Notes under the pieces: model-generated
What the model was told of the DNA's origin: nothing
What the model saw: the letters and a program-made list of their open reading frames with translations, nothing else
The model's database searches: none
Assembly: GCA_015657535.1 (NCBI GenBank)
Contig: JADHZB010001950.1
Span: forward strand, 62,001 to 126,000
From: Nephromyces sp. MM_2019
Taxonomy: Eukaryota; Apicomplexa; Aconoidasida; Nephromycida
Length of the DNA: 64,000 nucleotides
Direction: 5' to 3'
Made by a program: the position numbers and the translations under genes
In this document: piece by piece, positions 5,434-60,400 of the stretch
Position numbering within the stretch: position 1 is the stretch's first letter
Layout of the letters: each line of letters starts with the position of its first letter

Positions 5434-6941
5434 TCACAATGGGTTGAATTTAAGAGTTTCCCTCTGCTCATATGAAAAAATCCTCGCTTTTAACCAAAGT
5501 GACATCATACACTGACGAGTATCAGTTGGGTCACCGGGAGAAGGCATCAGCGCATTGTGGGCATATTCCACACGGGCCTTAACATCTCCAGAAGATTTCA
5601 GATAACCCCACAGAGAAGAGAGCACCGTCGGATCTTCCCAGGAAAATGCATTGAATGACCGACTCATGGCTGATGGTTCCTGCCAAGAAGCAGCGGAACT
5701 GTACGCACACAACATCTTCATATCAGACAACAAGAGATCTACATTGGATGGCTGCAGTAGCACATCAGACGGTGCTCGTACAGGTCCTTCTTGGGAGGAT
5801 CTCACGGAGCGAGCTTGCATGGCCATAAGGCTTAAATTTGGCAAAAACAAGAAATTGGGCAGAATATCTCAGTTACAGCGCGAGGAATAGAGTTCCTTCT
5901 CGCACACAAAGAAGATATGTATAATCCTTTGCATCTATTACCAGAAGACACATTGACGTTTTCACTTAGGTGGCTGACGCAAGAAACATTATGGGTTGTG
6001 ATATGTCCTGCCGAAAAGCATAAGTATATGCGCCTCCGTCATCATGTTTCGGAGATGGAGTTGCCCTTTTTGAGGAGCTACGCCGTGCTACATCCTAGGC
6101 TGCTTCGCCGGCGGTTGTAGCGGCGAGGAAGAAAATATCACATGGGTACTCGCAGATACCAAGCGCACGCAAGCGCGAGGCATGCTAAATTTGAGTACCT
6201 CGATTTGAAGTGTTTCGGCTTGCCTGTGCTCATCTGTAACTTCAAGCGAACACTGCATAAAAAGTAGCGGTGCGGACCAGCGATTTGCAGCATTGCTCCA
6301 TGTGCTGTACTGTAACTCAATTAATTAAAGTACGGCTTGATAGTACACGAGTTTTGCAATCATTACAGCGTTGCAAATTATCGGATATATCCGTGATTAA
6401 CTACACAGAACATCTTGCTTGATGTCGTCACTACGCTTATTGGACTGCACGCAGGCAAATATTAACGGGTCTCCGGGGAGCATCTTTAGAGTTTTACAAG
6501 ACTTGCATGTTGATACGAGCAATACGGACTATAATGTTATAGCACAGTTAAAAGCGGGTCTCGAAATTTCTGCTCATACAGGTATTTAAACTGTCAGCGC
6601 CAGAGCTAGCACAATTAGAGCAAGAGTCATAGTGTTTCAGCTAATGGTAGCTCTAAATCACGGAGATACCTCTGATTGATCATGTATGACTATTGAGCTG
6701 GGCCTAAAAATAGTGGCGTCATATTCTCATACGCTAAAAGCTAGCAGCAGATAATGCTTTTGTGGGGTATACTATTTCATGAGGAGGCAGTTACTATAGC
6801 ACATTCCAGCGCATTATTCACGGCATCTTCTATTTGCGTCCGTGCGACACAATAATTGGTACGCTAGGTGACTACCAGCAGTTGCAGTTGTAGTAGCAGC
6901 GCCAACGCCTACAATGGTGTTTTCCGCCCATATCACAATTT
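5434..6941 (-). CDS. Unrecognised multi-exon gene, 3' part
   Basis: Six exons join with matching phases on the minus strand: 6941-6876, 6829-6795, 6483-6412, 6309-6199, 6094-5979 and 5830-5434, ending at a TGA. They encode about 265 residues. GC content is clearly higher than in the flanks, and the last exon carries 132 open codons. Readable segments include IVIWAENTIVGVGAATTT in the first exon, MLPGDPLIFACVQSNKRSDD in the third, and a Ser/Pro-rich, Trp-containing tail (SWQEPSAMSRSFNAFSWEDP). The first exon begins in phase 1, so at least one 5' exon is missing; I could not place it. The WAENTIVGVG stretch is faintly like the CAP/SCP signature, but no other CAP hallmark is visible, so I assign no function. 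The internal splice choices are by eye; the weakest is the 5979 donor (GC before gtcagc). Confidence 0.55.
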
Positions 6942-7847: not shown

Positions 7848-8936
7848 TGGCTGATCCTTCATCTGGTAAGGAATACTCTAACTTGGGGCTTATGATCGCC
7901 ACATATGCTGCTGGATGTTGAAAAGGCTATTCTGGTAAAATTTTTTATTGTGCAAGAAAATGTTATTGTAACCGATTGTCAACTTGGTTCTTTGCCTATT
8001 CCCATGAAAGCTCATGTAACGTGCCATGTGAAGTTTGCCTGCTTCTAGTGCTTTAAAGCTCGTTTATAGTAAAAAAGAAACTGTTCAGGAGTATATTTTC
8101 AAGCAGTCATAACAGAAGCCATGCTAAGCCCTCAAAAAGGGAGAATAACTATACAAAGAGGGGATTTTTTGTTCCTTCGGGGTCCCATAGATGCAAGCTA
8201 GAGGAAAATACCGCTTTGGCTGTCAAAGCATTATCATCCTATTATAGAGCTTTATCTAATATGTGTTGCGTATTACAAATATTCCACACGTAAATTGAAA
8301 CTTACAAGTTACCATGCATGCAATTATTTTTTTCCAATGATGGGATATACCAATCCACAGCATATTCAAGCATTCTATGCCTTACAGGAGTAGGTATCCC
8401 TGCTGAATTATGGGTAAATAGGTAAAAATTGCATTAAACTGACCGGAATATTTCTCAAGCTTAATCTTGCTGAAAATCGCGAAAGTGTACATTATTCTGC
8501 AGGGAAAGTCTCCGAAAATTTTTTTTACAGCATAACAGATGCTTTTCTATTGCTTTTAAATTTCAAACTCTATTTTGAAGGGGGCCTGTAAAAATGAAAA
8601 AATTAGTCGGCTTAGCTAAGCGGCCTTCAATCCCATAAAAAGTGCGCAGTCGTATTCAGTTTCCATGGTTTAGCCAATTTCCACGTTAAAATGGCCGTAC
8701 CTCATTTTGATTTGCAGCCAACTTTGGATAGTTCTACTTAAGCGATTCATTTGGTAGCCGTAGAGCTAATGAGCAAATCAACGGCTTGCTTCATCAACTT
8801 GCCATCAGAATTTACTTCCTTCCAACCTGAGCAATGTCAAAAGTCATATGTACACTATTCTCTTGAACCTCTGTATGGCGTTGCTACCTGCTTTACGAAA
8901 AGCTATTATTTTAAAAGTATTTTAGCATTTGTTTAA
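7848..8936 (+). CDS. Tentative short-exon gene
   Basis: An ATG in a good Kozak context at 7848 opens a 19-base reading (MADPSS then a split codon) that ends at a strong gtaagg donor. Downstream plus-strand blocks look coding: one starting TGC AAG near 8191 (CKLEENTALAVKALSSYYRA) and ending at a gtaaat donor, one near 8503-8590 (KVSENFFYSITDAFLLLL), and a Cys-containing block at 8751-8936. I could not make one continuous phase-consistent chain, so this may be one gene, parts of two, or chance. The last block ends in a stop at 8936, overlapping by a few bases the end of the minus-strand wall-protein gene. Confidence 0.22.
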
Positions 8937-11900
8937 ATTAATTTATTACTCGGAAATAGCTTTTCCATGGTGTCTTCAGTGGGGCTAAAAGTGGATGCAA
9001 CAGTCCTGAGTTCGTAACAGGTCATGCTTCTCTGATCTTCGAACAGAAGGGAATGGTGCTCTGCCTCGTAGGACTCCAACTTTGAGAAAAAATGTAGTTG
9101 CGTGAATACTATGTGAGTGCTCACGGAGATAGGTTTCATAAAAAAATTACTTCACCTTTTCACACTGATAAGTGGTTAGCGAAGGAATCCTAGATATGCA
9201 TATTGGGGAAGGCTTGGAGTAATGCTGATACAATAACGCAGGAGCGTTCAGAACGTATCCCTGAATAAAGTGCAAAAGCTTTAATTTTAGATCAAAATTT
9301 TCTGCCAGTATCTGGATAGCTTTTTCTGAGTCTAGGTATTGGATGTAGTAATGTCTTGGAGGCATTGATTTGCTCTAAGTGTTGACAAAAAAGCTGCCGC
9401 CTTCCTCTAATGTTTGAAGGCAAAAGGCAAGTACAGTCAAGAATCTAACAGAATAACCTAGTCTGGCCAGAAGATGGGCAGACATTGGAGATAATATTAT
9501 GAATTGCAGGCAAATCGGATGAAGTAAACTTATACTCTTATCAAGTTTTTCCACATTACTCAATATCCATCTTAGCTTGAAACACCACGGTACATATCTC
9601 AGCATTAACTATTGTAAATAAGCAAAAATATGACCGAAATTTAAAGACAAGATAACCCTATCATTCGAAAATAACAGCACCTAGAATGAAATGATTTACA
9701 TCATTCTTAATGGCTTATCCATAAAAGAGCACCAAGAAATGAACACTATATTCATTCCTATAGATTTAATGGCCATTTCAGTCTGTGTCTCGTACTATCA
9801 CTATTATCAGTGCATTCTATCAAAATCCTTGGAGAGCTTATTAGACGCCTTCTTAACTCCGGCCACCAAAAAACATCGAATTCACTTATCACCATCCTTT
9901 GTACCAGCTGCACTAAACACTTGCTTTAAATTCTTGCCGTAGGGTATTATACATTACCTCTGGGCAGGATAATACAAAGTTATCATTACTTCGATTCCTG
10001 CAAGTAGTTGGATTCACTTTCTTGTGGGCATAACCTTCCGGGCACCGAAGAGTCGGCTTCGCATAGTGCTTAGTAGCACACACTACGGAGAATGATATGT
10101 TTCTATGTCGATAGACCACAGATCCTCCGTCTTCTGCTAAAATGCGTAAAAATACCAGATTATATGACTTTTAGGAGATAATTTCGGCTTTCTCGCATGC
10201 ACTAACTAGTTCAAGGCTCAAAGTTAAAAAGAATAAAAAAAGTAAACAATGATTACCAAATACTGCTAGAAGAAATGGAACAAACATTCTGTCAAATCTT
10301 AGCTAATGTATAAAGTGACTTGAGTACGGAATGCAACAAAATTTTATTAAAGTTTCTGACTTGTAGTTTAAAGGCAAACCAATAAAGGTGCGAGAATCAA
10401 AACTTCTTGGCCTACTTTCAATAGCTTTGTATCTGCTCCAATCAGTGATGATTCCCTGCAAACTACTCGCAGGAACCAGCTTCTCTGTAGGTATACTGGT
10501 TAGAGAATTTATCTCCCCATAGAGCAGGTAAGGAATTTCTTCAAAAGCTTGGCAATAGGGTTGCACATGTATCGACTGAATAAATAAGGCAGCCAAAAAC
10601 CGGTATCGCCGAGGAAATTTTTTCGATGAAATCAAGACGGTGCCAAGGAGATTTTTTGAGAATCTTCTTATAATCCTACTATTCTATCTTCAATATTACC
10701 TGTTCTTCAACTTTCTAAGAAATTATTGTTTTTTTAATACAAAATAGTGAAATAATGCCCTAAACTATGTTGGATTCATGGAATTGGAATAAAAATACAA
10801 CGCAATAGAAAAATTTTTGAACCTGAAAACTGGGAGTGTAGTAAATTCGACTATTCTGACATACTTGCATGTAAACGCATGTTTGCAAAGGTGACTGGAA
10901 TGATGGATTAGTCATGACCACGGGGTGATCATATAATTGCAAGTAGTCCTCATACGGGATAGAATCCGGTTCACAGGCAGGCTTTCCAGGAATTTCTTGC
11001 ACCTATTGATACGACAAAACTTTAACGGAATATTCTATGCAGTCCAAAATACAGAAAAACAAATTCGGTGTTTTTATGTGTTTGAAACGATGGCATCAAG
11101 TACCACTAGTATTTCGAAAATATAACATGCTACGCACAGGTTTTATGACGCTTGCAAAGGCAGTACTGTAGTAGCTAAAAGTATGCACAGCTAACACTTA
11201 TATCAAAGATCTGCTACATGCAGCGGTTAAATGGTTGTCTCAATAACTGCATAATGTACTTCTCGCCTACTAACTTCTCTGCAGATCAATCGGTCAGTCG
11301 TCAAGTCACTTTCTTTGGATACTATCGCTTCGCTCGTGCTTTCCGGGCAGCTTTGGACCTCATTGAGGTCGAAGTTTGTTATGAAAGTTTTCCTGCATAC
11401 CCCCGTCGAATCGCCCTTATAAAGAGAAGACTCGAAAAATATTGTTTGCTCGAGGTTATTAGTTTCAAAAGCAACTAATTTGCAACTAATGACGAGATTT
11501 TAGCACACTATTTTCTACCATGTTCAAATATTTCCACAAATACATAATGGATATATTCTAATTGAAATTCGCTACCTTCAAGAAAGGCTGGTACGTCTCA
11601 GGGCACTTGATGAATTTTTGCTTCTGCAAGGCAGCCTCGCAATAACTCCGATTTTTCCGCTTAGTACCCTTCATATAAAAAAGGAACATTCGTCCATTTA
11701 GGAAACTAGTGCTTTCCAATAAACTATGGTGATAGGACTAGTTCTTCTTACCCCTGGGCATCCGATTAACCCATGGCGAAATTCTCTAAAGAAACAAACA
11801 GTTCCGTCGGTGGAAAGTTCATACGGTGGATCACATTTGGGAGCCGCTGCAACGTCTAGCTCGGCTTTACAAGAAGCCGAATAAAAGTCAGCATAGAACT

Positions 11901-14298
11901 TCGACAAAACAAATCCTGGAGGGCACTGGACAAACGGTTGCGCCTGCCAAGAGGAAAATAAGGAGTTGTCATCATAATTTTCTACTTAATTATAAGCAAC
12001 GAAATAAGCATCTCTGCTTTTGTTAGTATCTTCTTCCTATAAGTACCACTGCTCTATTTTATCAGTTTTCAGAATCCCATCTCTTTTAATAACAAGCGTA
12101 ATCAGCCTTTAAAGGGTTTTCAAATTGTCTCAACGAAATTATTACTATACAACATATTAAAAAATACGAACTAAAATAATTCGGTTGGAAATGTTCAGAA
12201 TATTTCACAACGTAAAAATGGCGCGTTGCAAGGATTATCCTGTGAATTTATGGAAGGTATTCTCACGAAAATGCCTTTAAAACCACGAATCGAAGTATGC
12301 ATGTTTCAGCTTGCCGTATGAAAGCCTGTCAAGGGCGAAATTAATTGGCAAGAAGCGAAAAAACTTAAAGGGCCGCTTAGCTGCATAGTGCAGCAGAGGG
12401 TCAGGAAGAAAATACGAACAAATAGAATAATGCAAGTGGTTAGAGGCTACATAGTGTAAGCGGGTAGCACCAATGGAGTGGAAGATGTTTATGTTATAAG
12501 TTCGTTCGGGCACATTAAGCGTAAGCGAGGCTTGGATGCCAGAGCCTTGCTTAAAGAGTTAAAAGCTAGTTATTACCTGATGCTCTACGTAGCATGTTTT
12601 CGTCGCTACGTCATACTTGGCGTTTCCCTGGCATACTGGAATAAGGGGGTAAGTTTCGTTGGTTTTTCTGAAAGACAGATTAAGCGTAATAGAGGTTCAA
12701 AGCACATCTTTAAAAAAGCATTGCTTTTACTAAAACTCTGCTCATTAATTAGAGCACCTTGTCTTGAACATTTTGTCTTCTTTATGCATAAATTTTCAGG
12801 TTAATTTATGAATTAGAACTTAAAGCTTGGAATTATCAAAAATTGTAATATAAGCTTACAAAGCTTAAGTAAAGGGAAAATAATCGAGGATACCTCGCAC
12901 ACAGTTGAAGAGAAATAGGAGAGAAATCTGGGGGACATCCAACTAGAGACAACGGATCTTTCCAATTAAAGTTACTTCTTATATTCCCCGGTATTTTCCT
13001 TAACTCTTCGTGGTAGTAAGCTTGTAGATACACCAAACCCGCTTCCTTATTCAGGCCATAGTCCTCTCTCGCAGCTTCTGTTGATTAAATGCTAGGAAGG
13101 CCATTGGTAGCAGACTATAATTTGTTATGAAAGCTGACACTATGAGATGAACGCAGGAAAAAATGCAAAACTTGCAGGTGCATTATTTAATACATTAAAT
13201 GATGCTCGTGAAGAAAACGAACCTACGATTCGCAATTAAAAACACAAAAACAATCATCTATGACGTCACTACGGACTAAGGTTACTCCAAATTCGAATTA
13301 TCTTATTGCTTTCTACAAAAAGAACAGTTGATAATAGAAGAACGCTACGAATTCGTGCGTATAGACCTTCGTAATTCTTAATTCAATGCAAGAAGAAAAA
13401 GCATGTTTCGTTTGTATACCTCAGGGAACTTCTTACCGTAATATGTAAAGATTTTAGTGTCTTTTATATCCGCGTATTCATTGCTTTCAGGAGTGTTTGA
13501 AGAATCGGTGATATTTAAATCCCGTTGTCTGACTACAGAGGATTCTGGGATACCTGTTGAGTGCACTAGTAGCAGAATAGCAACGCGGGCATATTTTTTG
13601 TACATTTTGCCGGCCAGACACCCGCTAGAAAACATTCACCGAGACAGTACTTCCTATGTCGAATTAGATGTAAATCAGTGCTACGTGTGTAACCCAACGT
13701 GTTTAACATTACAATTTTTATTACGAAGGCTACCAGCGCATGCTACTGTAATGCTAAGCAATTTTTGCCGCTGATCTATACATGTAACATTAGTTTTGCT
13801 GATGTAATCCTAGCATAAAATACCATCTCCCGGCATGCAATCTTAGAATCGATAGGATTGCACCAAAGTGCAGACTCCAACTTTACAGGTATCACTCTAG
13901 ACAGGTGTGCGAGAAATTATATTGCTGGACAGGAGGCCGTTATTACGAAAAAATACCCAGATATCGTTGGTGTATTCACCTGCTTCGAGTGAAGTTTCGT
14001 CCTCTTCGCCATCGAAGGCAGCCTCTGTGTTACCAGAGTCTGATGAAAGATACTTATTGCCGCCTTTACTTTCTTTCGTGCTAAAGTTTAGGATTTTAAT
14101 TTCATTCGCTGTACTCGGTAGAGGTGTTCTGGATGCGAAATATGGCGTATTATGACTAAATATCTGAAATGGGGTTTCGTCCCCTCTGGCAAGGCCTTGA
14201 GAATGAAGTAGCTCATTCTTTAAACGTATATCATAAGCTTGACATACATGGTGCAATGGTATATAGCACCAGAAGACCAGTATTAGCAAAACTTCCAT
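8933..14298 (-). CDS. Oocyst wall protein (COWP/OWP)-like secreted Cys-rich protein
   Basis: Oocyst wall proteins are secreted and cross-linked by disulfides in the walls of coccidian and Cryptosporidium oocysts. The ATG at 14298 begins a signal peptide (MEVLLILVFWCYIPLHHVCQ). Exons by eye: 14298-13980; 13745-13685 (tentative); 13624-13437; 13077-12894; 12667-12577; from 12545 (frame problem); 11943-11752; 11668-11576; 11448 or 11430 to 11260; 11002-10865; 10575 to an unresolved donor; 10136-9958; 9260-9156; about 9117-8933. Phases match wherever both ends are clear. The exons carry a repeating CP...C pattern: GCPPDFSPISLQLC, KYDVATKTC, CPPGFVLSKFYADFYSASC, CDPPYELSTDGTVC, CPETYQP, RCPEGYAHKKVNPTTC and SCPEGYVLN (the last spans an exon junction). 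This is the spacing of the COWP type repeats. The gene may continue below 8933. An alternative start at 13635 or 13603 with its own hydrophobic N-terminus (MYKKYARVAILLLVHS) cannot be excluded. Confidence 0.72.
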
Positions 14299-20700: not shown

Positions 20701-23700
20701 TAGTTAAATGGGAACTTTAAGTGCACAAATATTTGAAAATTGAAGGTTTCTCCAATTTCCAAGGTGATAAGCCTTACTAGAGAGTGAAAGTAAGGTATTG
20801 ACAGTCTGAGAAACATTCAGAAAAAGGTGGAAAAAAAAGGCGAAAATAACAACTCAGAGAGTATGCACAGCAGGCTTTACACACGTGTGATGCAGCGAAA
20901 TCAAAAGTTGATCAAGAATCTTCAAACCCTATCTTCAACGCTCTATTAACAAGCCCCTATTGAAAAAAAAGCGGAGCTCTAGCAGAATTGCCGACACTCT
21001 TTTCCCTCAAATAGCCACTCAATAGTTACAAACACATCAACAGGTATATGAGGTATCAAAATACCTATAACGTAATTCTTTTAATATTTATACTAATTTA
21101 ATCGAATTCTCAAAGTGCTCTTTAAAAAATTCTCTCCTTTGTGAATCTCTGTAATGATCACATTCAAAATCATTCCATTGAGACCAGGCGACGATATTTG
21201 CACGGAAATCTATATATTATACCTCAAAAAAATAGCGTGATTTCGAAATCTGATAACGTTCCTACTCTAAGACAAAACTAAAAGCAGCTCGTGTGTGAAA
21301 GCACAAAAAATACCCATTATAACACAAGAAGCATACTAAAAGTGAAGGAGTGCTTAGAGGTACCTCTCAGGTATATCAAAAACTCTTCAAACAGCGGTGA
21401 ATATCAACATTAAACATAAAATCAGGCAGGCTGATCGAAAATCAGGAGAAATCGGATAATAAATGAGGCTAAAAGAACTCACCAGACTATACAAAGGCCC
21501 TGAATAAATAGGACCAGCAAAATTGAAGTGAGAACCACATTCTGAGCAGTTAGAGCCCAAGCAGCTCGGCACACTAGCAGCTCGATACTTAAAACGCCCT
21601 TCATTCACCACTTGTGTCTGTGCATTATCGCTGCCTTTACTTGCTGGGGTTCCGCCTTCATTCACCACTTGTGTCTGTGCATTATCGCTGCATTTGCTGG
21701 CCGATAGCCCAGAAGGAGAAGACTCAATAGATGTTCCTAGTGGGGCCACATGAAATGAGCAGCATCTAGAGCACTGGTAAACCTGCAAAACGGAGAGTGA
21801 ATATGTATTGACAAAATTTCGGTGGTAAAGCAAGCCCAATTCTTCAACCACCTGCACACAGCTCGAAATGACAAGTGTTTTACTCAACAACACACAAAAC
21901 GTGAAAAGATATCTTCATTAAGAAATATGTGATTGTAGAGAAAAAGTTCGACAATCTTCATAGGAAAAAAAAATTTGTAAGCCTGTGATGCCACACACCT
22001 TGAATCACAGCTGGAAGGTGTGAAAAAAACACACCAAAATTACGAGTTATTCTTGAAGGCATAAAAACAAAAATCCACACACAAACACACAAATTACAAC
22101 ATTTTTTTCCTTATAGCGGGCACAGTTACCAATGAAGTTTTCTGGGGAATTTCCTTGCAGCCGGAAGGATTTTTTTTTACTCTTACGAATAATCGCACAT
22201 AGAAGTCGACGCTAAAACAGGCCAAAGGAATGACGACTCTTTTATATTTTGCCGCTGACATTGTCAAGGCGTTCATTATTAATCTGCAAAATCACATCCA
22301 AAATAGCAGGAAAAAAAAGTAAAAAAAAACAGCAGGCGCAGTGAATAGCAAAGTGTGTGTGTGTGCTCGTTGTATGAATATCAGCAGAAATAGAAGGAAA
22401 AATCAAAATTTCTAAGATTATCGTCATCATCAAATGCATCAAACGGCAAAAACAGCATCACAGAGACGAGGGTAGCACATCAAAGGATCAATTCGGGAAT
22501 ATTAAATACACTAAAAAAGCCTTCCCACCAAACCCCCCAAAGCCTTCCCACCAAACCCCCCAAAGCCTTCCCACCAACCCCCCCAAAACCTTCCCACCAA
22601 CCCCCCAAAAGCCTTCCCAACGAACTCTACGCAATTAAAAGCATAAATGCGCACCAGGCAACCAAGTGATAGCATGCATCCCCTCTCTTCATCATAAAAA
22701 AACTGGCAGCTGTTTCACACACATAAAACTTGCGGTATGTAAAACCCCCGCAGCCCAAAAGTCACCAAGTTTTCCTCGACATTAATCAGCGATAATCGCT
22801 TCAAATTTCAATAAATAATAAAAATTTTATGCATATTTACTTGAACAGATACTTTTTGAGTACACACGCTACCCCTTGACTATGAAAAAAAGTGCAAATA
22901 TAATTAATGTAGAAAGCATTGTATACTTCCTCTATAATAAAAATTAGATTTGAAAATCAGGAAACAGTAACAAGAAGAAGAAAAAAATCTCAAAGTAAAA
23001 AGTTCATCAAATTTGGAGTAGGTTTATCATAAGTTTGTCTTCAGTTAAAAAATCCGGTTTTACAAGAAAAAGACTCACTTAGCCTACAGAAATCATGTCA
23101 AGAAAATTTGCACACACCACTACCACCCCCATCAAAGAAAAGACACACCTACCGTAAAGACATTTCGTGCATGTAACCAGCTTTGCTGGATAACCCTCCG
23201 TATTTATAAAAGGAAACTTCAGGGTTAACTCCACAGAGAACAGGCATGTCTGTGGATGTAACACACAGCATCCCACCAGGCCTTACAGCTTGTATGGCGC
23301 TATCCAGAAACTGAGAAACACTTCCATAAGGATCTATGTCAACCACGTCAAATAGCATGTCGCTACTATCTTCATCAAAATCATGAAGAATTGAAGATGC
23401 AGAAACTTTGGGAATTTTGTGAAAATTCGTTATGTCCCCATCCTCAGCAGGTTCAGCTCCAAGCAGCGAGGTAGGTTGAGGAAAATCTGAAGATTGTGAG
23501 AAAAAAAAATATATAAGTGGTAGGTATTTAAGTAACTGTTATATAAAAGTTTCTCCCGATTGCTGGTGTATGTACAGCGCTGCAAAGATTGGGTGTGTCT
23601 GGAAGAGAGCCGTTCATAACTTAAGGATTAGGTTGAAATATCATTGCTATCATGATAGCAAGATAAAAGCTATTGCCTTGTGTGATGATATACTATGAAG

Positions 23701-26700
23701 GAAGATGGTGATCATGGGTGCAGTGGTGGGCAAAATATAGTTCTGGAATATGTATGAAGATGACGCTTTGAGAGCATAGCAGGAGGAAGCATGAGCTTAC
23801 CATCACACGAAAGGCAGTTTTTGGGGTAAGAAAAGGCGAGTTTTCGCTCACACAAACAGAACCAGACTAAAATAAAAATTGAGAATATACAAAGAGACGA
23901 TTGCTGCTCCTCTAGAAAAAACGTGCTGAAATTACACCTAAACTCACCAAAAACCCTGCTCAAAAAACCGACTTCACATAATTTTTTCGCAACACCCTAT
24001 TCCCTGCATCTATTCTAAAATGTATGCAGCTCAATCATAAGAAATCACAAGAACAAACTACACACAAAAAGGCACACACGAGCGAAAGACACCAAGATAT
24101 ATATTATACACACTGCTTTTTCAATCATACTTTTTGAGTGACTCCAATCGATCTCTTTAACAACTACCAGCCCTGACTGAGCCAGTCAAGGGCTGCAACA
24201 TTCGCATAAAATCAATTTATTAAGCCTATAAACCTAAGAAAGCATCTTGAGCATAAGAAGCCTCTTCAGCACACAGTAATCCTCTTGGCACACATAAGAA
24301 AATTCATTGAATTACCTGGAGAGCTCACATCAGTAGGAGGAACACACTTCTTGGAATTTTGACTATTCGAGCTTCTCAAACAAACTCTTGAACCAGGAGG
24401 ATTCAATGCCTCAAGTCTTCTTTCTAATGTGGGCAGATTATGCTGCCGAATGGCAATCTCGTACATTAACGCGCAGCCCTCCTTGCATTTAACTGAGCAG
24501 CAAGAGACACACATTTCATCAGTGCGACAGAAGCAACGCTGTTTGGACCAGCTAAAAGACACACACAAAGCTACAAAAATAGAAATAAAAAAGGAAAGGA
24601 CAAAAACCAGTACTCGTCCAAAAAAATGCATATTAAAAGAAATGAAAAAGAAGAGAGTGTGAAGAAATGGGTGCAATCTTAAAGAATTCGGCTGCAGAAA
24701 GTAACAAAATGAGTTTTGTTGATAATTTTTATGTTGTGTGTCTGTGAGGGGTGGGCGAAATATTTCACAAAAGCGGCAGTTTGTGTGCCATATAGCACAA
24801 AATAGGAATAAAAACATAAATTCATGAGAAACTCGCAACTCAAAGGGGAAGAGCTGAAAGGAGAATGCAGAAAAAGACTTGCAAAAGCTTTGAGAAACTC
24901 TAATTTCTTGCAGCAAACCTGTTATTTGCTTTGAAGATACATCATTGAGAATGCAATTCTTCTTGATAGCATCGGTGGCTGATGGATCAATATCATTGGC
25001 ATGTACATGGCGCACAATTTCGGAAAGCTCTTTAGCATATCTAATGCTACGCAAGCCTGGGAAGAGAAGCAGAGGATATCAATAAACACACACGCACACA
25101 GATTGACATACACAGAGTGGCACACACATAAACACAAGAAGTCAATCGCAACTTCAACCTAAAACAGTCAGTTAAGGCCTCATAAAATACAGAAAAACTC
25201 ACAAAAAATATCTTTCAGCGTAAAAACAACTGAAGATATTTCAAAATTTCAGTAGAAATCAAAGAAGTCAAAGAAATACACAAAGAATATCCGCTATAGG
25301 CGTATACTCTCAAGATTATCGCAGAATTTCGCATCACTATACTCTTAAGAATTGCACTGAATAAACCTGCTAAAAGCTAGAGATAAGGCAAATTGAAAAG
25401 AAGGTAAAACTAGCCAAAATATAGAAAGAGGTCAATAGTGAGATTTGTGTGTAGATGTTTATAAAGAGGATAAGAAAGAGATTACGGAACGAATATTAAA
25501 CGAGAAAGAGGTAAATAGTGAGATTTGTATGTAGAAGTTTCTATAATGAAGAATCTCATTAAAAAGATAAAAGATGTACTAAAAGAAGCACAATAGGATG
25601 CTTTGTAGCAATTTGTGCAGGCGAAAAGTTAAGTAACAACAGGGGGATATCAAATTCAAATTTCTATACTGAAACAGTAATAAATGATTATTTGCAGTAA
25701 TATTTCTACACAAGTATCTGCTTAAAACATACACACACACACAAAGAGAATTTGCTAGCAAAAATATCAAACAGAAATGACTCACGCAAACTGATGAATG
25801 AGTAAAGGTAACAACACACACACCTAAATTTCATACAGGCACAATGTGGGGGGTAGAGGGGGGTTAATATGTATATGTCTGTTGGTGGGGTATGTGTTGA
25901 TATGTGTGTATTTCGGTGGGTTGGGTAGGTGTTGACCTGTGTGTGTGGGTTTGCAAGAAATAATGCTATGAGATTAGAGAACACTTGCACTGCAAAAGAA
26001 GAATATATCCCCCTCAGCAAGAAACTCAACATAATCAGCGGATCAGATTTGAATCAATATTTCACTTCACACACACCCGATGCTGCCAGTGGTTCCAAAA
26101 TATTAAAGCCTTCAAAGGTGACATTGTAAGACAGTTCAAGTTGCTCAGCTTCCTGACCAGCGAATCCTTGCTGCTGCTTAGAGAGTAACTCATTATTTTT
26201 CCTTTCCTGAGCTGAGGCAGCTGCTCGGAAGAAGGGTTGAAAAAACTTATAGAAACAGAGCAAACGGCTAAGCAGTAATTGGACCCGTAAAATGAGAATT
26301 TTTTAGTAATAAAACACAAACAAGAACATTCACAGTAGATAAAAAACTTATAAATAAAAAAGAATGTTTGTATGGGAATTGGTAAAGTTCCTCATGTGTG
26401 CAGCTGTGAGTTTCCCGGATAAAAAAGACATTAAATAGTGTGTAAAGTATCAGGGGGGGGATTTGTAACACTTTTTTACAGTACCCATCGCAAGAAATTT
26501 AAACTGTGCGAACCATTAAATGAATAATCTCTCCAAATGAAATACACTTCAAAAAATTAAGAAAGTAGGATTTAGCGGGGAGCATCATAGAATTAATATA
26601 AGGATATGCAAATTCTCTTGTCTTCCGAGATCTTTTTAAATTATTCCGTGAAGAACCCTTGCAGATTTGAAAACTAAGCAAAAAATAAGGGTTTAGGGTT

Positions 26701-28171
26701 TAGGGTCTCTTAAGTTTCAGGAAAAACCTCAATCTCATGCAATGTGGGGATCGGGGCAACATCAAGCAGAAACGCTGCAAAAGTTACGAGCAACCTTGTA
26801 AATAAGTCAGGAAAAGCTTCTTTTATTAGGGAAAAAAGAATGACTTGCTTACATTAAGGTGTTTGATAACTATACGGTAAACACACTTTTTTTCATATGC
26901 TCTCGAATAATTCCCGCCAGCATGACAAAGTTTACCTATGATAAGTTCTCATTCTAAAGCAGGCGTTTACTCTCTAATTATATGTAAAAACAGCGGAAGA
27001 AGCAAGAAAGCGTCAAAGTTTCGTTACAGGCATACTCACCATCTTCAAAGAATATCCTAAGTAGATTTATTTTAGAGGAAAATCTCTAGTTTAAAATAAA
27101 AAAAAGCTCAAGAGGAAGTATATGAGTGCTTGAAAAATCATACTTATATACTCGAAATTGCTAAATCGCCCAAAATGTTTCTAGGAGGAGCGCCATCCTG
27201 CTAGTAATACATAGTGCCTATTATTCGGGGAGGTTACAGCGAAGAGGCAGACACCAAGATAGTGGAGGTAAGAAATTCTTTTAAATATTGCGCAACAAAA
27301 AATTTAGCAGTACAAAACAATACTTTCCAGTAAGCAAAGATTCGTGTGTGCGCCATTGTGTTGCTCCCTTTGAGCATATAGTTAACTACTTCTGCGTGCG
27401 TTTAAAATCAACATGAGAAAAACGGAGAATCTGATGAAGGTTAATGTGATTCCCCTAAACTTTTAAACAATACTTAAGCAGTTCGTGAGGATCTCGTGAA
27501 GACAACCAGCTAGTTTCGCTATAACTTATATCTAACGGTAGGAGAACGAGTTCTTTGATGAGTGCAGAGGATTCAACGTTTCTCCTGCAATATTTTTTTT
27601 GGCACACTAACCAATATATTTAAGTCAGACTCACACCTTTTATTTATACTATCAATTTTTCTCACGCTTATTTGCGACCAGGTAAACGCAGAAACCATCA
27701 AATATCATCAATAAAAATACCTTGATTGTGACAATTACTACTTTATTCTACGTCTAGAGCATGAAAGATTCCTTCTAGAGCCAGATTGATGTAATTCCAA
27801 TAAAAATCATACGGCTGGTCTGACCATAACAAAAAATTTGGACCTTGAACCAGCGAAAGATACTGTAACAGGAATACGCGGTATTACTCATGCGTAAACT
27901 ACAAAAAGTCCGGCATTAAATGTAGTGAATTCCCAAAAAAATCCTTTATATTACACCCGACACCCTTATGAACGTAGTATTTCAACTCTTGCGTAAATTT
28001 TACCATACCTTTTGCTTCAATCTCCCTCTTGCAAATTTCAGCGAAGCTTTTTATAGCAATAATTGAGAGGTCTCGATTCACAACTTGGGCAGGGTTGTAG
28101 AAAACTTCGTCAGAAGTCTGGGACAGTACCACAAGCCCCTCCTTGAGTCTTTTCTCAGTCTCCAGATTCAT
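17794..28171 (-). CDS. TRMT1: tRNA (guanine26-N2)-dimethyltransferase Trm1
   Basis: The enzyme uses SAM to make m2,2-G at position 26 of nuclear and mitochondrial tRNAs. Eleven exons join with every phase agreeing: 28171-28009, 26223-26077, 25056-24919, 24492-24316, 23486-23153, 22283-22130, 21782-21483, 20647-20543, 20030-19945, 18851-18681 and 17992-17794, giving 657 residues, close to the human protein. Family motifs occur in order: EVFYNPAQVVNRDLSI near residue 22; the SAM site NILEPLAASG joined across an intron to LRSIRYAKEL; ANDIDPSA; the catalytic VVDIDPYGS near 257 with CVTSTDMPVLCG; YMHEMSLR; SVDFYVRLFVRV; CxxC pairs near 375 and 450; GPIYSGPLYS; ELFDVPLHYSL; SIKTNAP; and the C-terminal WVPNPEPFWGPK. 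The exon 2 acceptor could be 26223 or 26220. The final AGG-TAA also resembles a donor, but the family ends here. Introns are long, up to about 1.8 kb. Confidence 0.95.
18480..18501. repeat. (ATT)n microsatellite
   Basis: About seven consecutive ATT units in the last intron of TRMT1 (between the exons ending at 18681 and starting at 17992). Confidence 0.9.
21588..21701 (-). repeat. 57-bp in-frame tandem duplication in TRMT1 exon 7
   Basis: Two nearly identical 57-base units lie head to tail inside the seventh TRMT1 exon. On the protein they give the 19-residue unit ASKCSDNAQTQVVNEGGTP followed by ASKGSDNAQTQVVNEG. The unit length is a multiple of three, so the frame is kept. It lies between the two CxxC pairs of the zinc-binding part, where Trm1 proteins vary in length. 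One copy has Cys where the other has Gly. Confidence 0.95.
22518..22620. repeat. 23-bp minisatellite, C-rich on + / G-rich on TRMT1 sense strand
   Basis: About 4.5 copies at an exact 23-base period (unit begins GCCTTCCCACCAAACCCCCC on the plus strand), with a G-to-A change in the fourth copy and small A/C run differences. It lies in the TRMT1 intron between the exons ending at 23153 and starting at 22283. The pre-mRNA would carry repeated runs of five to seven G plus GGG and GG runs. Confidence 0.95.
25845..25950. repeat. G/T-rich low-complexity tract
   Basis: A plus-strand tract of G runs (3-6) separated by T/A-rich spacers and ending in (TG)n. It lies in the TRMT1 intron between exons 2 and 3, so on the transcript it is C/A-rich. 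This is the opposite strand bias to most other TRMT1 introns. Confidence 0.8.
26689..26706 (+). repeat. Interstitial TTTAGGG-type telomere motif
   Basis: The 18 bases read GGGTTTAGGGTTTAGGGT, two and a half perfect units of the TTTAGGG telomere repeat used by coccidian apicomplexans and plants. It sits inside the first TRMT1 intron, not at a chromosome end. Confidence 0.9.
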
Positions 28172-35900: not shown

Positions 35901-38120
35901 TTAGTCTGCTTCGTCAATATCATCTTTATTCCCTGGGACGAAACCCAATCCAGAGATGTAGCTCAATTTTGTGCTGATTCCGTAGAGAACCAGGCCGGCA
36001 TCGTCAGGATCAGTGCATACGGTAGCATGGGCAGGCACTGACTCTCTGCCCCCATTCCTATAACTAATAAGTTTAACAGGTATATTTCTGCATCTGCCTC
36101 CTGAAGTCACATTATTGGTGATTGGCTGCGGCACCAGGCAAGTAGAAGGTCCGTGGACGAGTTCCCGTCCCATAATATCTACCAAATTGGAAGAGGCCTC
36201 AAGAATGCAGCCCTCCTGAGCGTCTATCACGCCATATCCATCAAATTCCGCCCCCAGCAGTGCTTTGAGCTTGGATAGTTCTCTCTCTAACTTTGAAGTC
36301 TGCATCTTTTCCTCGGTGACATCTTGAAACAATCCCCAAAAAATTGGAGAAGGGTGGCAAACTACATGACCGGCAGCTTTGAACCAACTGATGTGTCCAT
36401 CTGGTTTTTCGTATCTTATTTCCGTCTGGAATGGTACATACAGATCCATCAGTTCCCTCATTGCGCGGAACAGCTGTACTCGATCAGGTTCAAATATATA
36501 TTGCATCCAGTCGTCCTCCGGGCTTAGCACATTCCCATCTTCGCTCCTCTCGCACCGACGTCCGGTAAGTTGCTTGAGTACCTTGGATGCAACCCAAGCA
36601 TTAGAGTTGTTGCTGTCAACTAAAATGTTAAACTGTTGCGCAGAGCTCTTATTGGATCCTTGAGGACATTGTTCAAGAGTAATTTTATCGAAATAAGCGT
36701 GATTAAACGCCCATGCTGCTGTCTTATAAGACTCTGAAAGTGCTTCAAGTAATGATGTAACAACAAGTTTATGTCTTACTTGCGCCGAGACGTCGCGCAG
36801 CGAGCAAACAAATATTTTGGGATCTTTCTTGTAGATAGATACCGACAGTTCACAGTATATTAGGTGCTCCGATGATGCAGCTTCCAGAGCCCCATTCTGT
36901 GCAGTGGCAGCGGACGTTTCGGAACTTCCATGTATGCCTCCCTTCAGCAAGCGCACAACCGCAGAATTATGCAGCCTTTTCCCGATCAAGTTATCAGCAG
37001 AATCAGTTACTTCGTGTAAAGTTTTCTCTGTTTTGTGGGATTGTTCTGAAAATTGGTGATCTGTCTGGTCCTCTTCGAAAACCGTGGTTGCCGCTTCGAA
37101 TAAACTTTCGAAGATAGCGGTATCCGCCGGGAGCACATAATTGCTAAGAGCTCCCAACCTGAGGGCATGCCTTCCCAAATTTGGAACTTCACTAAAACTC
37201 GATAAGAGGCATTCGTCCTCTCCAAAAATATGGCTACAGTTAGGTGTAGCCCAGAAGCATATGTTCGTCTCCGTGAGTAGTAATACAGCCCCCCCGCTGA
37301 CTCTGCTTAAAAGGTCCATGTTATGCTCTAGAAAAGCAGTTAGGAAAGAGTATCTCTCGGTAGTTTTTGAAGAAACTTGTGCTTTACTACTGTCGTTATC
37401 CGAAATAAGAACATCTCGGTTAACTTCAACCTCAGGCGCTTTAATTAGCAAAGACTTCATTACAAAACACGCCGTACAGTACACTAGCATCTGAAGCAAG
37501 TCTTTTGGGGCATTCCTAGGCTCTGCAAAAACGCGCGTCACCAAGCCAGGTAAGCACCTACACACGACGATGGCAGTTAAGACACTGCGATGACTCCTCG
37601 CTATCTCAGGGTGGCTTGGAGACGTCAGTAAGAGGAATACTACAAGAGGCTCTGTGCTTGATGTTTTATTGCAAAATGAATGGGGCGATATCCCTAGCGT
37701 TTCTACGAAGAACCAGCATGCCAGGGTGCAGATGGATCTAATGTAATATTTAGGAAAAGTGGAGCATATTCTGCTGGCGAAATATGTAGAGCACTCCAAA
37801 ATGCATAAATTGAGAACCAGCAGTCCATATTTCCAATGTGTTGAGCTTGTAAAGAGATGGGCGGCAACATTAAAAGCTAGATACCCGAAATGTAGATTCG
37901 CTGCAGCTTCCGAATTGGCAAAGTTACCGTAGATATACTTTTGCAGCATGTGCGGCAAGCATCCGGTAGGATGGCTTGAAGATCCTGCCACTTCAGCTCT
38001 GCTATTATCTTCTTTTTCCGCAGTATTGCCGAAAATAATATGTTGATCAAATAATAAACTTACTTTGCGTAGACGACTCTCCCTACGCACCTCTCTGGCT
38101 AGCTCCATCACTCTGTGCAT
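35901..38120 (-). CDS. Multi-pass membrane protein with tandem PAS domains
   Basis: One uninterrupted ATG-to-stop frame of 739 residues, intronless among intron-rich neighbours. Residues 1-60 are polar; about 76-230 hold four or five hydrophobic segments broken by short polar loops, a likely membrane region. Three PAS-like regions follow. The first is near 270-450, with a Ser/Thr-rich insert near 350-420. The second and clearest is near 490-602, with DDWMQYIFEPDRVQLFRAMR, then EIRYEKPDGHISWFKAAGHV and the terminal FWGLFQDVTEEK typical of the PAS_3 fold. After a short coiled coil near 603-622, the third is near 623-720. No kinase, cyclase, phosphodiesterase or DNA-binding output domain is present. 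PAS domains sense small ligands or mediate protein contacts; the ligand here cannot be told from sequence. The acidic C-terminus (DDIDEAD) looks like a natural end. A role as a membrane sensor or scaffold is inference. Confidence 0.88.
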   Translation of the reverse strand: MHRVMELAREVRRESRLRKVSLLFDQHIIFGNTAEKEDNSRAEVAGSSSHPTGCLPHMLQKYIYGNFANSEAAANLHFGYLAFNVAAHLFTSSTHWKYGLLVLNLCILECSTYFASRICSTFPKYYIRSICTLACWFFVETLGISPHSFCNKTSSTEPLVVFLLLTSPSHPEIARSHRSVLTAIVVCRCLPGLVTRVFAEPRNAPKDLLQMLVYCTACFVMKSLLIKAPEVEVNRDVLISDNDSSKAQVSSKTTERYSFLTAFLEHNMDLLSRVSGGAVLLLTETNICFWATPNCSHIFGEDECLLSSFSEVPNLGRHALRLGALSNYVLPADTAIFESLFEAATTVFEEDQTDHQFSEQSHKTEKTLHEVTDSADNLIGKRLHNSAVVRLLKGGIHGSSETSAATAQNGALEAASSEHLIYCELSVSIYKKDPKIFVCSLRDVSAQVRHKLVVTSLLEALSESYKTAAWAFNHAYFDKITLEQCPQGSNKSSAQQFNILVDSNNSNAWVASKVLKQLTGRRCERSEDGNVLSPEDDWMQYIFEPDRVQLFRAMRELMDLYVPFQTEIRYEKPDGHISWFKAAGHVVCHPSPIFWGLFQDVTEEKMQTSKLERELSKLKALLGAEFDGYGVIDAQEGCILEASSNLVDIMGRELVHGPSTCLVPQPITNNVTSGGRCRNIPVKLISYRNGGRESVPAHATVCTDPDDAGLVLYGISTKLSYISGLGFVPGNKDDIDEAD

Positions 38121-38440
38121 ACTGCATCGAAGCTAATGAAGTTTGCTAGTTCAAAAGCTACAACAACGCGATTATCCTAGCATCTTTCTCACAATTTTAA
38201 GCTTTGCCACATTCTACGATGACGTAATGCTCAATATGCTTCATCTCCGTAGCGCAGTGCTAACTCCGCGAGGCGAAGCTTATCTCAACTCTATCTTATG
38301 AGCTTGACGAAGCGAAGCGCCTATATGAAAATCCGAAAGGCCTGAATGACTATTTGTAACATTGGAGCTGCTGAAATTAAAGTGCACAGAAGATATTACC
38401 TTCTATGGAGTTCATGATTGAATAGTAGGGCGTTTAAATG

Positions 38441-51936: not shown

Positions 51937-52622
51937 CACCACTTAAGACATGGCGAAGCGATCAATAATGAAGTACATTACTTAGCTGCTACAATATGAA
52001 TATGAATTGCTTTTCTGCTCCCTTTAGTCCTCACTGCTTAAATTCATATTATAACTTCTTATTCGATTTGTGTTTAATGGCCCAAAGGCTTGGTAAGGCC
52101 GTGCCAGAATACTCGTTTCGCAGCAATGCTCTCACTGCCGCTGTTACGTAAAAGTCGACTATACTTTCAAACTTGAAACTTGAGAATTTACTGTCCTATC
52201 AGCTGAGTTTGCCTTCAGCAAATTTGAACCGGTCCGCAAGCTTCTAATGGGCAAGCGCGCCTCACCGTATTGACCATTGTCATTCCCTCCCATCGCTAGC
52301 GCTTTCGCCTAAATTGTTCGTTGAAATGCCGCATTACGCGATGGCATATTCTTTCCTTTTCTCCTCAAATAAATGTAATTAATAAGGTTGTTTTCTTGCG
52401 CCAGCGGTGATACTGGCAAGTACCAGACCACGAAGTGTGATTCCCTATGTCATAGCTACATTGCGTGCTGCACTTTGTGCCCCTGGGAGCCTGCATTAAA
52501 AGATTTTTAGTTTGAGCAGTACTTTTTTATGATTGAAATTTGCTCTCCAGGTTCTTGGGAATTTATATCACCTAGCGCGTAAAACATATAGTACCTGCTT
52601 AAAGAACACAGAGAGTGTCACG

Positions 52623-53515
52623 ATGGCTGCCCTTCCATCTAAGTCCCTAACTTCTCGTACCTCAGACTTTCAGGCCCGAATTGATGCAATGATTAATTCG
52701 ATTACTCATGCTGGGCTCCCACTACAGAGAAAAGCCTTTCAGTGCTGCGTAGATTGCTTCCCTAATTACGATAGTTTAGTCCCTAAAGAAGCACCAAAAA
52801 GTCCAGCCTTATCTGGAAAGAGCGCTTCTGAGTCTCCTGATGAATACGATGCCATTTCTCGTTGCATCCAGGAATGTCAAAAGCCGTCGGAGCAGTTTTC
52901 CAGCTCAATGCAGAATGAGATGCAGATGCTTCAAAACAATCTTCATGCATGTCAGCAGGTGCCATTAAATATTAATGATTAACAAGCTTGTCGCATGTGA
53001 AAGATGCCACGAATTTTCGCAAACATGATCTCTCTCAGTTGATAAATGGCGTTGCGCGCGCTCTGTTTAAAACAAGCCCAAAGCTCTTCGTTACGTTCAT
53101 GGGCTTTATAATGAAATTTTGGCCGTTCTTCACAGATTCCGCTTCCTTTTGCTGAATTCTGTTATTATCTATGAGTAGCATATACTGTTTGCTGCATTTC
53201 ATAAGTCGCGAAGATATTTCTCTTTTTACTTCTTCGTTTGGTTTGCTCTTCGAGCTTGATTATGCTTTTCCTCTCTTCTGTTTTTCTAAAAAGCTCATGC
53301 CTTTCACGCTGTTTTTTTTCAATATTTGACTCCTGCAGGTATGTTTTAATCGGTTTGCCCCACTTTTAAATGATGGAAAGAGTACTAGTGATCGAGGAAA
53401 GATAGAACAAGACATGGAGCAATGTGTATCCCAGTGTTTTGACCAATATGAGCCTTTTATCAACGAAATTTCTCAGCGAATGCAGTCACTACTGAACAAG
53501 CTGTCTTCTGCTTAA
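52623..53515 (+). CDS. FAM136A-like twin CX3C protein
   Basis: FAM136A is a small mitochondrial intermembrane-space protein with paired CX3C motifs, the kind imported by the Mia40 disulfide relay. Two exons, 52623-52958 and 53339-53515, join in phase 0 and encode 170 residues. Four CX3C motifs are present in order: C41-C45, C81-C85, C110-C114 (split by the intron) and C141-C145. The N-terminus (SDFQARIDAMINSITHAGLP, then LQRKAFQCCVDCF) matches the DUF842 start. There is no cleavable leader, as expected for this import route. The region between the first two motifs carries a Ser/Pro-rich insert. The ATG at 52623 is chosen because it begins the conserved part; the upstream frame has no ATG. Confidence 0.88.
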
Positions 53516-56841: not shown

Positions 56842-57475
56842 AACTTAGCGTTTTCACAGCGATTAGTTAAGTGGCAATTTTATGGCGTCTGCAAATCAAC
56901 TGAGTACTCAAAAATGTCGCGGAAACGATCACAGTTCATTGGAGATGGAAGTGCCTGATGCTTTTAGCATATGCACCGTGACAAAATAGAAGTTATGCAA
57001 GGGCGTCTACGCCACGAATATGAGCGAGGCTTGGGTAGAGTGGGCCGCTATGTTGCTGTTGACTTTTGGCTCATCTACCAGATCAGTGTAAGAATAGGAA
57101 CACCTTACCTATTCAAGATACCCTCATAACATAATGAATTACTGAAATACACAGCTGTGCCGCATGATTATATTTTTTTAGCTCGTCTATTCCTTATGAA
57201 ATTATGGCCTTCAAGTGCTTTCTGGGGGGCCTTGCATTGTTTGATTGCAGTCATCATGCCTCTGGTGGCTCCTGATGCTTTCGATGTACAAGTCTAGAAA
57301 TTTGTATCGTAGAAAAGGGTACCCATTGTGAAGCATGACGTTGATGTTCCCACCTGAATGTCATTTTATTCCCAATGCTGCGAAAAATCCAAGACCTCAT
57401 ATTGTTTCCGTTTGATTGGAGAATTGTGTGGGAGCTACCACAGCGCAATGTAAAACATTTGAACCTGGCTTGCTA

Positions 57476-60400
57476 ATGGGGTTGATTAAAGGAACATCTG
57501 CCAGGGTGGTTTTGCGCATAGCATTTTTCTACCTTGCAATACTGAGTGTGGGGATTTGTAATGTAGCAGCTTTTTCTTGGAAATTAAGTGGTACCCATGT
57601 ACTTTTTAAGTGCTCTGGCGCCTTGGAAGACGGGAATAGATTTACCCAGTTTAATGCTTCAAGTAGAAGAGTGTCGTTTCTCCCTCTTTTCAAGCATTTG
57701 TCGGCTTTAACAACAACTTCAGCTGTGTTATATGATGCTTCGCTTATTCGAGTAAATGAGCAATTTTTCCAGCGAACAAAACTTAAATCGGTAAGCTCTA
57801 CTAAAAATAGCTGTCCCCCGCGGAACCCCAGGCGGCAGTCTTTTTCTGAGCTTCATAAAGCCCTTCGTCGTTATGATTGGCTTTGTGAGTTATATAATCC
57901 TGATTCAGCCATATCAGGTGATAGCAGGTCCAAGCAATTTTTACTTGAGTTGAACCCTATAGAAAAAAGGAATTATTCGCCAGAAGTCTCATTTAGTGAA
58001 GACTTCGAAAATAACGTTCCGTTTAGCAGTAAAGGAGGCTCCTTTGCGAAGCTTACCGCACTTGATGCAAGGCTTCGTCATTTCAATAAAAATATTAAAT
58101 CGGAAGAACCAATTTTTATGTCTGGTCTGAAAGCGGATAAACTTATAGAGCAAGGTGAGAATCTTTTAGAAATAAAAGGTAACCTGGTATTCAACTTGCC
58201 TAATATTTTACGCATATTAGATTATGCACGGAGGGAACTGAAAAATAATGTAAAGATTGCTGCATTTATGGATTTTCTGCAAAAAATTGTACCGAAGAGG
58301 TGGGATCTGCTTATGGCATGCATAGCTATCTTTTCAAAATGGTATTTCCCTTCTCTCAAGTTCGGCGTAGCAGATAGTGATAATGTGCTCAACAGCTGGA
58401 TTTTGGACCGAAAGATGGACAATCAAAGCTTCTTTCGAAAACATAGACTACTTTTTGATCTCGAACTATGGCTTTTCTATGTGAAAACTTTTCCTAATTT
58501 TGTTGGACAAGAATTAATTACAGTGCCCATTCATTGGGATTCTATGCAACTCAATTTTTTGCATCCTCATCTTAAAAACTCGGTGCTGCGAAGGAAACAC
58601 GAATTGTGGAATTTGCTGCATACTTATCAAGAGAGAGTTGAGGGAACATCATCAGATCCTTTTGTTGACCCTGTAAGCAGCTGTATCACAGAGGATGAGT
58701 GCGAGATGTTAGGTAGCTTGTCTCCAGGTTTTAATATGCTTAACTTAGCGTGGGCACATAGTGTTATATCTTCTAGATCTTTCATTTTGGGCGAAAAAGC
58801 CGACAGCATAACTAATTACTGCCTTTTGCCATTAATTGATCTCTGCAATCATGGAAAAGACGCAGCTAGTAACGTGCAGATAAATTTATTGAAGCATGAA
58901 CAGAAATGCGATGAGGATCGTAACGGTAAAGGAGCAAGTGTGCCTCCTTCGTGTAGTCAGGACGCCTCCGAGCTCTTATGGGATCGTACTTTGCTGGATC
59001 CTACTCATAATTCCGTAGCTGAAGTGCCCAACTTGCCGCTGGATTACAGCGCTATTTATAGCGAGGGGTTTGGTACTTTGTTGGAGAGTTCAAAGTTACA
59101 GTGCGGAGCTATCGCGCTTACAGCAAAAAAAAAAATTCTTCCTGGGGAGCAAATTTTACTGGACTATGGTCCCATCAACAATGATCTGCTGCTACTGAAT
59201 TATGGATTCATCATTGACAATCAGTGGGTTAACGTTGTATATTATTTGACTTGTCCGTAATTCTTTGTTAGTTATAGCCTTCCATGGCTATGCATTTTTG
59301 TGCTTTCATGAATTGCCTGCATAGAGTATTGCTTCTTATTGATATAAGATTTTTCATGTAAAAGCTAGCCTAGCTAAGCAGTTGCTTGGTGCATCAGCGT
59401 ATTTAATACTTTGGTCGTTCGCATTAGTTTTCGTGTGTTTTATCTTTCATCTCTTTCAGGCCAGATACATTGAATTTTCAGCTGACTCCAAAATGGATTA
59501 ATGAAGCAGCTACAGCTGCTGAGGTCGCGCCATTTTTCCCTGTGGGATTAGTTGGGGAGCTTAATCCTAAACTTAGTGTGAAGTTGAAAGATTTGTTCAA
59601 AATGTTTGATGGTTGGCTTACAAGGAGAAAAAAAATCACCGGTGCTTTATGTGCTAATAATTTTATTGAAGGTTCGAAAATAGAAAATAATACCCAGGAG
59701 CATGTAAACGAAGAATTAGTAGGATTTCCTATCTTCTCTATTGGCTACCACTCAGGAATTGATCCTCGATTACTGGGGCTGATAAGGGTGAGACTCTCCT
59801 GTAAAAAATATAAGGTTGATATTTTGAGGAGCATAGCTGTTACGTCCCGGAAATATTTTTTGCATTGCAAATACCTTAATCTTCTAACCTGGAAGATACT
59901 CGGCTTATATCCTAAAGTTCACATTTTTACCCTTTTACATGTTTTTTCATCTACAGTTATTGCAAATTAAAGACTCATCAATCTTGGAAAAAATTGACAA
60001 CTCTGAGATCTCCAAACCAAGTTATGTCTTTTCCCAAGAAAATGAGGTGAAGTTTTGTGACTGCGTCGTCCTTGGATGAATATGCTTGCTGTTATTTGAC
60101 TTTCATTTGATGATTCTTAAAAAACTACTGCATGGCACTAGCTTAATCTATGTTAATAATTCATAAGGTGGTCATATTTTACTTTATGGTAGCATGAGAA
60201 ACAGCATAAATATTCTGTTACACTGAAACTTTCTTCAACAGGTAAACACTGTGCGATTGCTTTTGGCTATATGCAAGGACCTTTTATTCTATTTTTTTCC
60301 TGCGAAAACTACGGAAGAAGATCTGAGGGCGCTCGTAACTGGCAAGCTTAATATGCATTCCATGGTTAGGGGCGCGCCTAATGTATTCGAAGTTGATAGA

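Follow-up and report, generated by a model that had tools for sequence, protein, structure and literature searches.

A many-exon gene for a probable divergent, oocyst-wall-protein-like cysteine-rich protein in a Nephromyces assembly

Oocyst wall proteins (OWPs) have been reported from Cryptosporidium and coccidia, and a CPxG motif is a feature of their repeat. In the extracts cited here, tandem CP-type cysteine repeats are described as the family feature (PMC4514997; PMC7224171), the proteins are held to polymerise through disulfides in the wall (PMC7389338), and OWP-type proteins are also reported from Vitrella (PMC4501334). For rhytidocystids, an extract of PMC7522995 gives more than 100 OWP-type transcripts and describes proteins with a signal peptide followed by Cys repeats. 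Single OWP members can be dispensable, since COWP8 knock-outs are viable and transmissible according to an extract of PMC12548878. Among the matches listed for literature on OWPs with Nephromyces, Cardiosporidium, corallicolids, Blabericola or Rhytidocystis, the extracts contained 'oocyst wall protein' in PMC7522995 only.

The closest described systems are of two kinds. Canonical COWP/TgOWP1 type I arrays have six-Cys repeats at regular distances, with loops mostly of 11–13 residues. TgOWP2 and TgOWP4 of Toxoplasma and EnOWP2 of Eimeria nieschulzi have degenerate type I repeats at irregular distances, as described in extracts of PMC4514997, where EnOWP2 and EnOWP6 reporters are located in the sporocyst wall. 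The same extracts say that COWP type II regions are absent from Toxoplasma OWPs.

We analyzed a window of 64,000 nucleotides from Nephromyces sp. MM_2019 (contig C996 of the assembly), in which a first-pass annotation had placed a large oocyst-wall-protein-like gene broken into short exons. The minus strand at 8933–14298 was read in three frames, and in-frame pieces were joined across GT-AG introns. Judged from its sequence, window 8933–14298 holds a real many-exon apicomplexan gene. Frames read and joined by hand give a minus-strand gene at 14298–8933 with 12 exons, 11 introns and a product of 625 aa. The start ATG lies at 14298 and the stop codon ends at 8933, both coinciding with the bounds proposed at first pass. 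The many minus-strand exons with agreeing splice phases were likewise recovered: 11 of 11 introns are GT-AG and their phases agree, the splice sites having been picked by hand with agreement in mind. The proposed exon size of 30–65 codons fails for exon 1, which has 106. The exons are as follows.

13980..14298, minus strand: exon 1, with the start codon, a hydrophobic N-terminus (putative signal peptide) and the N-terminal region
13437..13565, minus strand: exon 2, the least certain exon, without a separate counterpart exon in the C1072 ortholog (see below)
12894..13077, minus strand: exon 3, with the first CP loop (CPPDFSPISLQLC); acceptor uncertain
12577..12667, minus strand: exon 4, with the CQGNAKYD loop
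11752..11943, minus strand: exon 5, with the CPPGF loop, the CDPPY loop and a CPG loop start
11576..11668, minus strand: exon 6, with the remainder of the CPG/GTKRKNRSYC loop, then CPETY
11275..11415, minus strand: exon 7, with the CPEST loop
10865..11002, minus strand: exon 8, with the 32-residue loop CEPDSIPYEDY...C
10416..10575, minus strand: exon 9, with the bulk of the 65-residue loop and its conserved Cys-free insert (IP.L.YG...PT.LV..S..Q.....WS.YK)
9958..10136, minus strand: exon 10, with a linker, the CPEGY loop, a linker and CPE
9156..9260, minus strand: exon 11, with GY of an intron-split CPEGY motif, then the last linker
8933..9079, minus strand: exon 12, with the last loop, the C-terminal tail and the stop codon

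Searches of the same assembly covered 48.3 Mb in 1,127 contigs. Exon 5 as query found two places, the window and contig C1072, and the C1072 stretch carries the window gene exon by exon. The whole joined protein as query returned its own gene, three C1072 exons and one weak match to an OWP-type locus on C892 (E 1.25, or 0.154 with the C1072 ortholog as query). Both gene models are hand-built, and the C1072 model was guided by the window model. The two proteins agree at 138 of the 423 residues aligned in the Cys core (33%), and all 24 core cysteines of the window protein are met by a cysteine in the ortholog, which has one extra. Eight introns share alignment column and phase. The first intron (alignment columns 125 and 146, both phase 1) and the last (columns 617 and 604, both phase 0) are displaced, and the window gene has one more intron than the ortholog, in its N-terminal part. 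Exon 1 has a phase 1 donor and can be aligned to the first exon of the ortholog; the 3' part of exon 3 matches the ortholog (LV.CP..F.PISLQ.CA); and the ortholog splits CPE/GF at the same place as the CPEGY of window exons 10 and 11. Core identity at codon positions 1, 2 and 3 is 0.496, 0.541 and 0.333, and by this comparison the protein is conserved above the level of third codon positions.

The comparison also shaped the window model. The initial model, which started at 13605 and had acceptors at 11659 and 9374, was given up once it had been compared with the ortholog. The acceptors set at 11668 and 9260 yield a loop of 12 and the intron-split CPEGY motif, a loop agreement that is not independent because both acceptors were moved after the ortholog had been compared. 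Linkers of 12 residues span the introns at residues 242, 384 and 430, which supports those junctions.

The neighbourhood is partly shared by the two contigs. TRM1 (tRNA dimethylguanosine methyltransferase) has eight matches in the assembly, four on C996 and four on C1072; on each contig it shares the strand of the OWP-like gene and lies upstream of it. In the window, the TRM1 gene is found in pieces over 21387–28123 on the minus strand (Pfam PF02005), with the piece at 21387–21914 below cut-off. ATPTG10, which we take to be a Toxoplasma mitochondrial ATP synthase subunit family, has two matches in the assembly, one on each of these contigs. It lies about 3.1 and 32 kb from the OWP-like gene on the two contigs and in differing relative orientation, so that linkage is kept but order is not. 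The window carries its ATPTG10-like exon at 5434–5868 on the minus strand (Pfam, E 7e-31), a hit that points to an apicomplexan or a near relative of one.

All 24 cysteines of the product lie within residues 197–598, where 12 loops and the 11 linkers joining them alternate along the Cys core. Measured Cys-to-Cys, the loops are 12, 13, 18, 13, 12, 16, 22, 32, 65, 14, 23 and 23 residues long, and the linkers 14, 12, 12, 12, 12, 16, 12, 12, 12, 12 and 12. The first-pass spacing of 13–20 residues for CP...C motifs therefore gives way to a constant linker of 12 (Cys-x11-Cys, nine of 11 linkers) that alternates with loops of 12–65. Nine equal alternating gaps are observed, whereas 200,000 sets of as many randomly placed cysteines gave six at most. 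Seven of the 12 loops start with a CP-type motif; CQGNAKYD, CDPPYELS and CQAFEEIP are loop starts, as had been noted. Within the 65-residue loop, one stretch is conserved between the window gene and the C1072 ortholog; no match to this stretch was found.

Compared with canonical COWP/TgOWP1 type I proteins, the window protein shares CP-type loops and tandem 12-residue linkers but differs in its wider range of loop lengths, in the five of 12 loops that do not start with CP, and in having no His-rich stretches. Canonical six-Cys repeats at regular distances are absent by loop lengths, and a search of the 625 aa product for His-rich type II repeats found no His runs. The degenerate type I proteins TgOWP2, TgOWP4 and EnOWP2, as described in the extracts of PMC4514997, resemble it in having irregularly spaced Cys arrays. 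By the same extracts their size is comparable (EnOWP2 467 aa and TgOWP2 462 aa, versus 625 aa), whereas EnOWP2 has two short introns and the window gene 11.

We compared the window protein with OWP-type genes in several ways. A synthetic CPxG-repeat query run against the same assembly gave 58 matches, spread over 12 contigs. On inspection, 11 contigs proved to carry Cys arrays of the CP type, and the twelfth, C1026, has an EGF-like ORF; the window gene is absent from the 58 matches, even at E ≤ 1. We call the canonical genes OWP by their look, that is, by tandem CP-type Cys repeats as described and not by annotation. At nine OWP-type loci, including two His-rich ones, we read 93 two-loop units, and linkers of 12 residues occur in 88 of them (the pattern allowed 10–14). 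An OWP profile was then built from 83 units at seven loci, with the linker fixed at 12 and with the window gene and C1072 left out; it represents this assembly's OWP-type genes, not annotated COWP/TgOWP sequences.

The profile scores the window core at 20.6 bits and the core of the C1072 ortholog at 31.3 bits. No shuffle reached the window score among 2,000 full shuffles (maximum 10.1 bits) or 2,000 with cysteines fixed (maximum 14.2 bits). A Cys pattern scoring no better than random against COWP profiles had been named at first pass as grounds for rejection; against this COWP-type profile of the assembly's own genes, the pattern survived. With the linker fixed, spacing alone accounts for some of the score, but the Cys-fixed shuffles stay below 20.6 bits, so residues around the cysteines contribute. 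Segment permutation leaves the repeats intact and is therefore no informative null (682 of 2,000 reach the score); it was discarded. When the whole window was cut into 1,661 six-frame pieces, the frame of exon 5 was the best profile hit (18.9 bits, E 1.8e-4) and that of exon 10 the second best (14.0 bits, E 0.006); the other exons reach at most 5.2 bits (exon 4), amid unrelated frames and within noise. The EGF-like ORF on C1026 scores 10.2 bits. Profile-profile comparison with the OWP type gave an hhalign probability of 92.6, with E 4.7e-7 for one comparison.

General databases added no named relative. The protein database returned nothing at E ≤ 1 for the preliminary model (3,859 candidates) or for the two-row alignment (best 7,997 candidates by shared words), and no COWP/TgOWP-named sequence appeared among the protein search matches. 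Pfam had no family above cut-off for the window gene, with CPW-WPC not among its hits, and PDB sequences matched at E 0.66 or worse only. One canonical OWP-type gene as protein-database query had two matches, P0001 and P0002, neither named OWP by its source. P0001 (1264 aa, from a JGI metagenome contig of 20,242 bases) is a large protein with OWP-like Cys repeats, scoring 216 bits with the OWP repeat profile, and its gaps are mostly of 10–14. P0002, from the gregarine Blabericola migrator (EukProt), scores 89 bits with the OWP repeat profile; its OWP-like part has recurrent 12-residue linkers and loops of as many as 44 residues, and longer Cys-free gaps also occur in the protein. Its alignment with the window gene is weak (hhalign probability 18.4) and thus gives no sign of orthology. 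Extended loops are unusual, though P0002 offers a parallel and so, by description, do degenerate type I OWPs.

Taken together, these comparisons make it likely that the locus works as a spliced gene and encodes a secreted, divergent OWP-type ('degenerate type I') protein. The first-pass label of OWP-like holds as far as the Cys architecture, the profile, the hhalign match and the canonical OWP-type genes of the assembly go; it is weakened by the non-canonical spacing and by only two exons standing out. The gene would be a new, divergent member of the known OWP family, and a remote relation. Where a new lineage-specific branch had been suggested, we see one divergent gene, with an ortholog in what is either another genome or another copy of the same one. 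The product is probably secreted: residues 1–15 of the window protein are hydrophobic (Kyte-Doolittle mean 2.17), although the N-terminus of the C1072 ortholog is no more than weakly hydrophobic (0.56 in the hand-built model).

A secreted Cys-rich adhesin or invasion-organelle protein, with OWP-like or EGF-like repeats but in no wall, is an unlikely identity for the product. Such a protein would be compatible with the irregular loops, one of them with a conserved Cys-free insert, and with sub-threshold EGF-type Pfam hits, cEGF being found in both orthologs (best E 0.021). However, cEGF reaches 13.5 bits for the window protein where the cut-off is 26.6, OWP-type repeats have the same constant linker of 12 residues, and hydropathy gives no strongly hydrophobic segment beyond the N-terminus.

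The start of the gene bears on a second alternative, that of a short secreted protein (14298–13897) followed by a separate OWP-like gene from ATG 13605. The reading frame of exon 1 continues past the donor to a stop codon (frame 14427–13897), and a start at ATG 13605 also yields an open model, whose frame has a signal-peptide-like stretch at its beginning and is joined in phase; the acceptor of exon 2 falls within this alternative start exon (13605–13437). The C1072 ortholog, however, has an alignable upstream N-terminal exon, also with a phase 1 donor, and by eye the hydrophobic stretch at 13605 overlaps a pyrimidine-rich acceptor tract, so we consider two genes improbable. That in-frame fragments were strung together by eye where there is no gene, or a decayed one, is hardly credible even with two hand-built models drawn from sequence alone, given 24 of 24 core cysteines and eight introns conserved between cores that are 33% identical, third codon positions that are the least conserved, and a Cys spacing unmatched in 200,000 random placements.

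Pairing the assembly's OWP-type loci by reciprocal best summed BLAST scores over their stretches gave C1003/C569, C474/C1087, C437/C892, C161/C29, C1006/C564 and C1072/C996, each with one low-GC (0.28–0.33) and one high-GC (0.38–0.42) partner. By reciprocal BLAST, C392 is unpaired and the EGF-like C1026 has no match. Among the 14 readable contigs in a sample of 20, two have a GC of 0.27–0.28 and 12 of 0.376–0.47. The six reciprocal pairs split by GC (about 0.29 and 0.38–0.42), with TRM1 and ATPTG10 on both C996 and C1072, suggest that two related apicomplexans were co-assembled. Two genomes are unsupported by cox1, which has one full match only, on C105, and one weak, broken match below cut-off on C488. 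Ribosomal protein L32e, used as a copy-number marker, gave no match. An old duplication with GC drift could stand in place of two genomes.

Two of the pairs have features of their own. C161 (L035:1134-2519) and C29 (L036:896-2233) carry OWP-type frames in which the Cys repeats are separated by His-rich stretches; these stretches recall COWP type II regions, and the pair spans both GC classes. C564 and C1006 are a divergent reciprocal pair with OWP-type frames at 33.4 and 31.6 bits (L037, L039), in which 12-residue linkers and some long loops can be seen by eye.

By analogy with described OWPs, the window protein is most likely a disulfide-linked part of the parasite cyst wall, and its even number of cysteines (24) after a putative signal peptide fits such a component. 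It would enter the secretory pathway and end up in the oocyst or sporocyst wall, either from wall-forming bodies in which the female stage had stored it or after synthesis at sporulation. There the cysteines would pair as disulfides, both inside one molecule and from one molecule to another. Linkers of constant length may act as the polymer-forming frame. The stretched loops, which reach 65 residues and in one case carry the conserved Cys-free insert, may lie exposed and account for a role particular to this paralog.

A bolder reading, which we consider doubtful, is that of a distinct old subfamily ('long-loop OWP'), kept near TRM1 in both genomes and with a wall function that canonical OWPs lack. 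The 12-residue linkers would then have been kept as the disulfide frame as the loops grew and one of them gained a Cys-free domain; the function might be, for example, polysaccharide or lipid binding, or a suture.

If the gene encodes a divergent OWP-type protein, as we favour, some OWP-type wall proteins of this apicomplexan would come from genes so strongly diverged that they escape both plain ORF finding and a query with canonical repeats. A usable search signature for diverged OWPs could be the alternation of Cys-x11-Cys linkers with loops, whatever the loop length. Together with the other OWP-type pairs of the assembly, the gene would make oocyst wall composition testable outside Cryptosporidium and the well-studied coccidia. 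Were it merely one more OWP, this would be ordinary family growth.

Elsewhere in the window, a 743 aa open frame on the minus strand (35901–38132) has a PAS fold hit at 24.9 bits against a Pfam cut-off of 25.6. A 614 aa open frame on the plus strand (57416–59260) has a weak SET domain at its end (18.5 bits, cut-off 22.4). At 52533–52982 on the plus strand lies an exon of a DUF842 protein (Pfam, E 3.4e-13).
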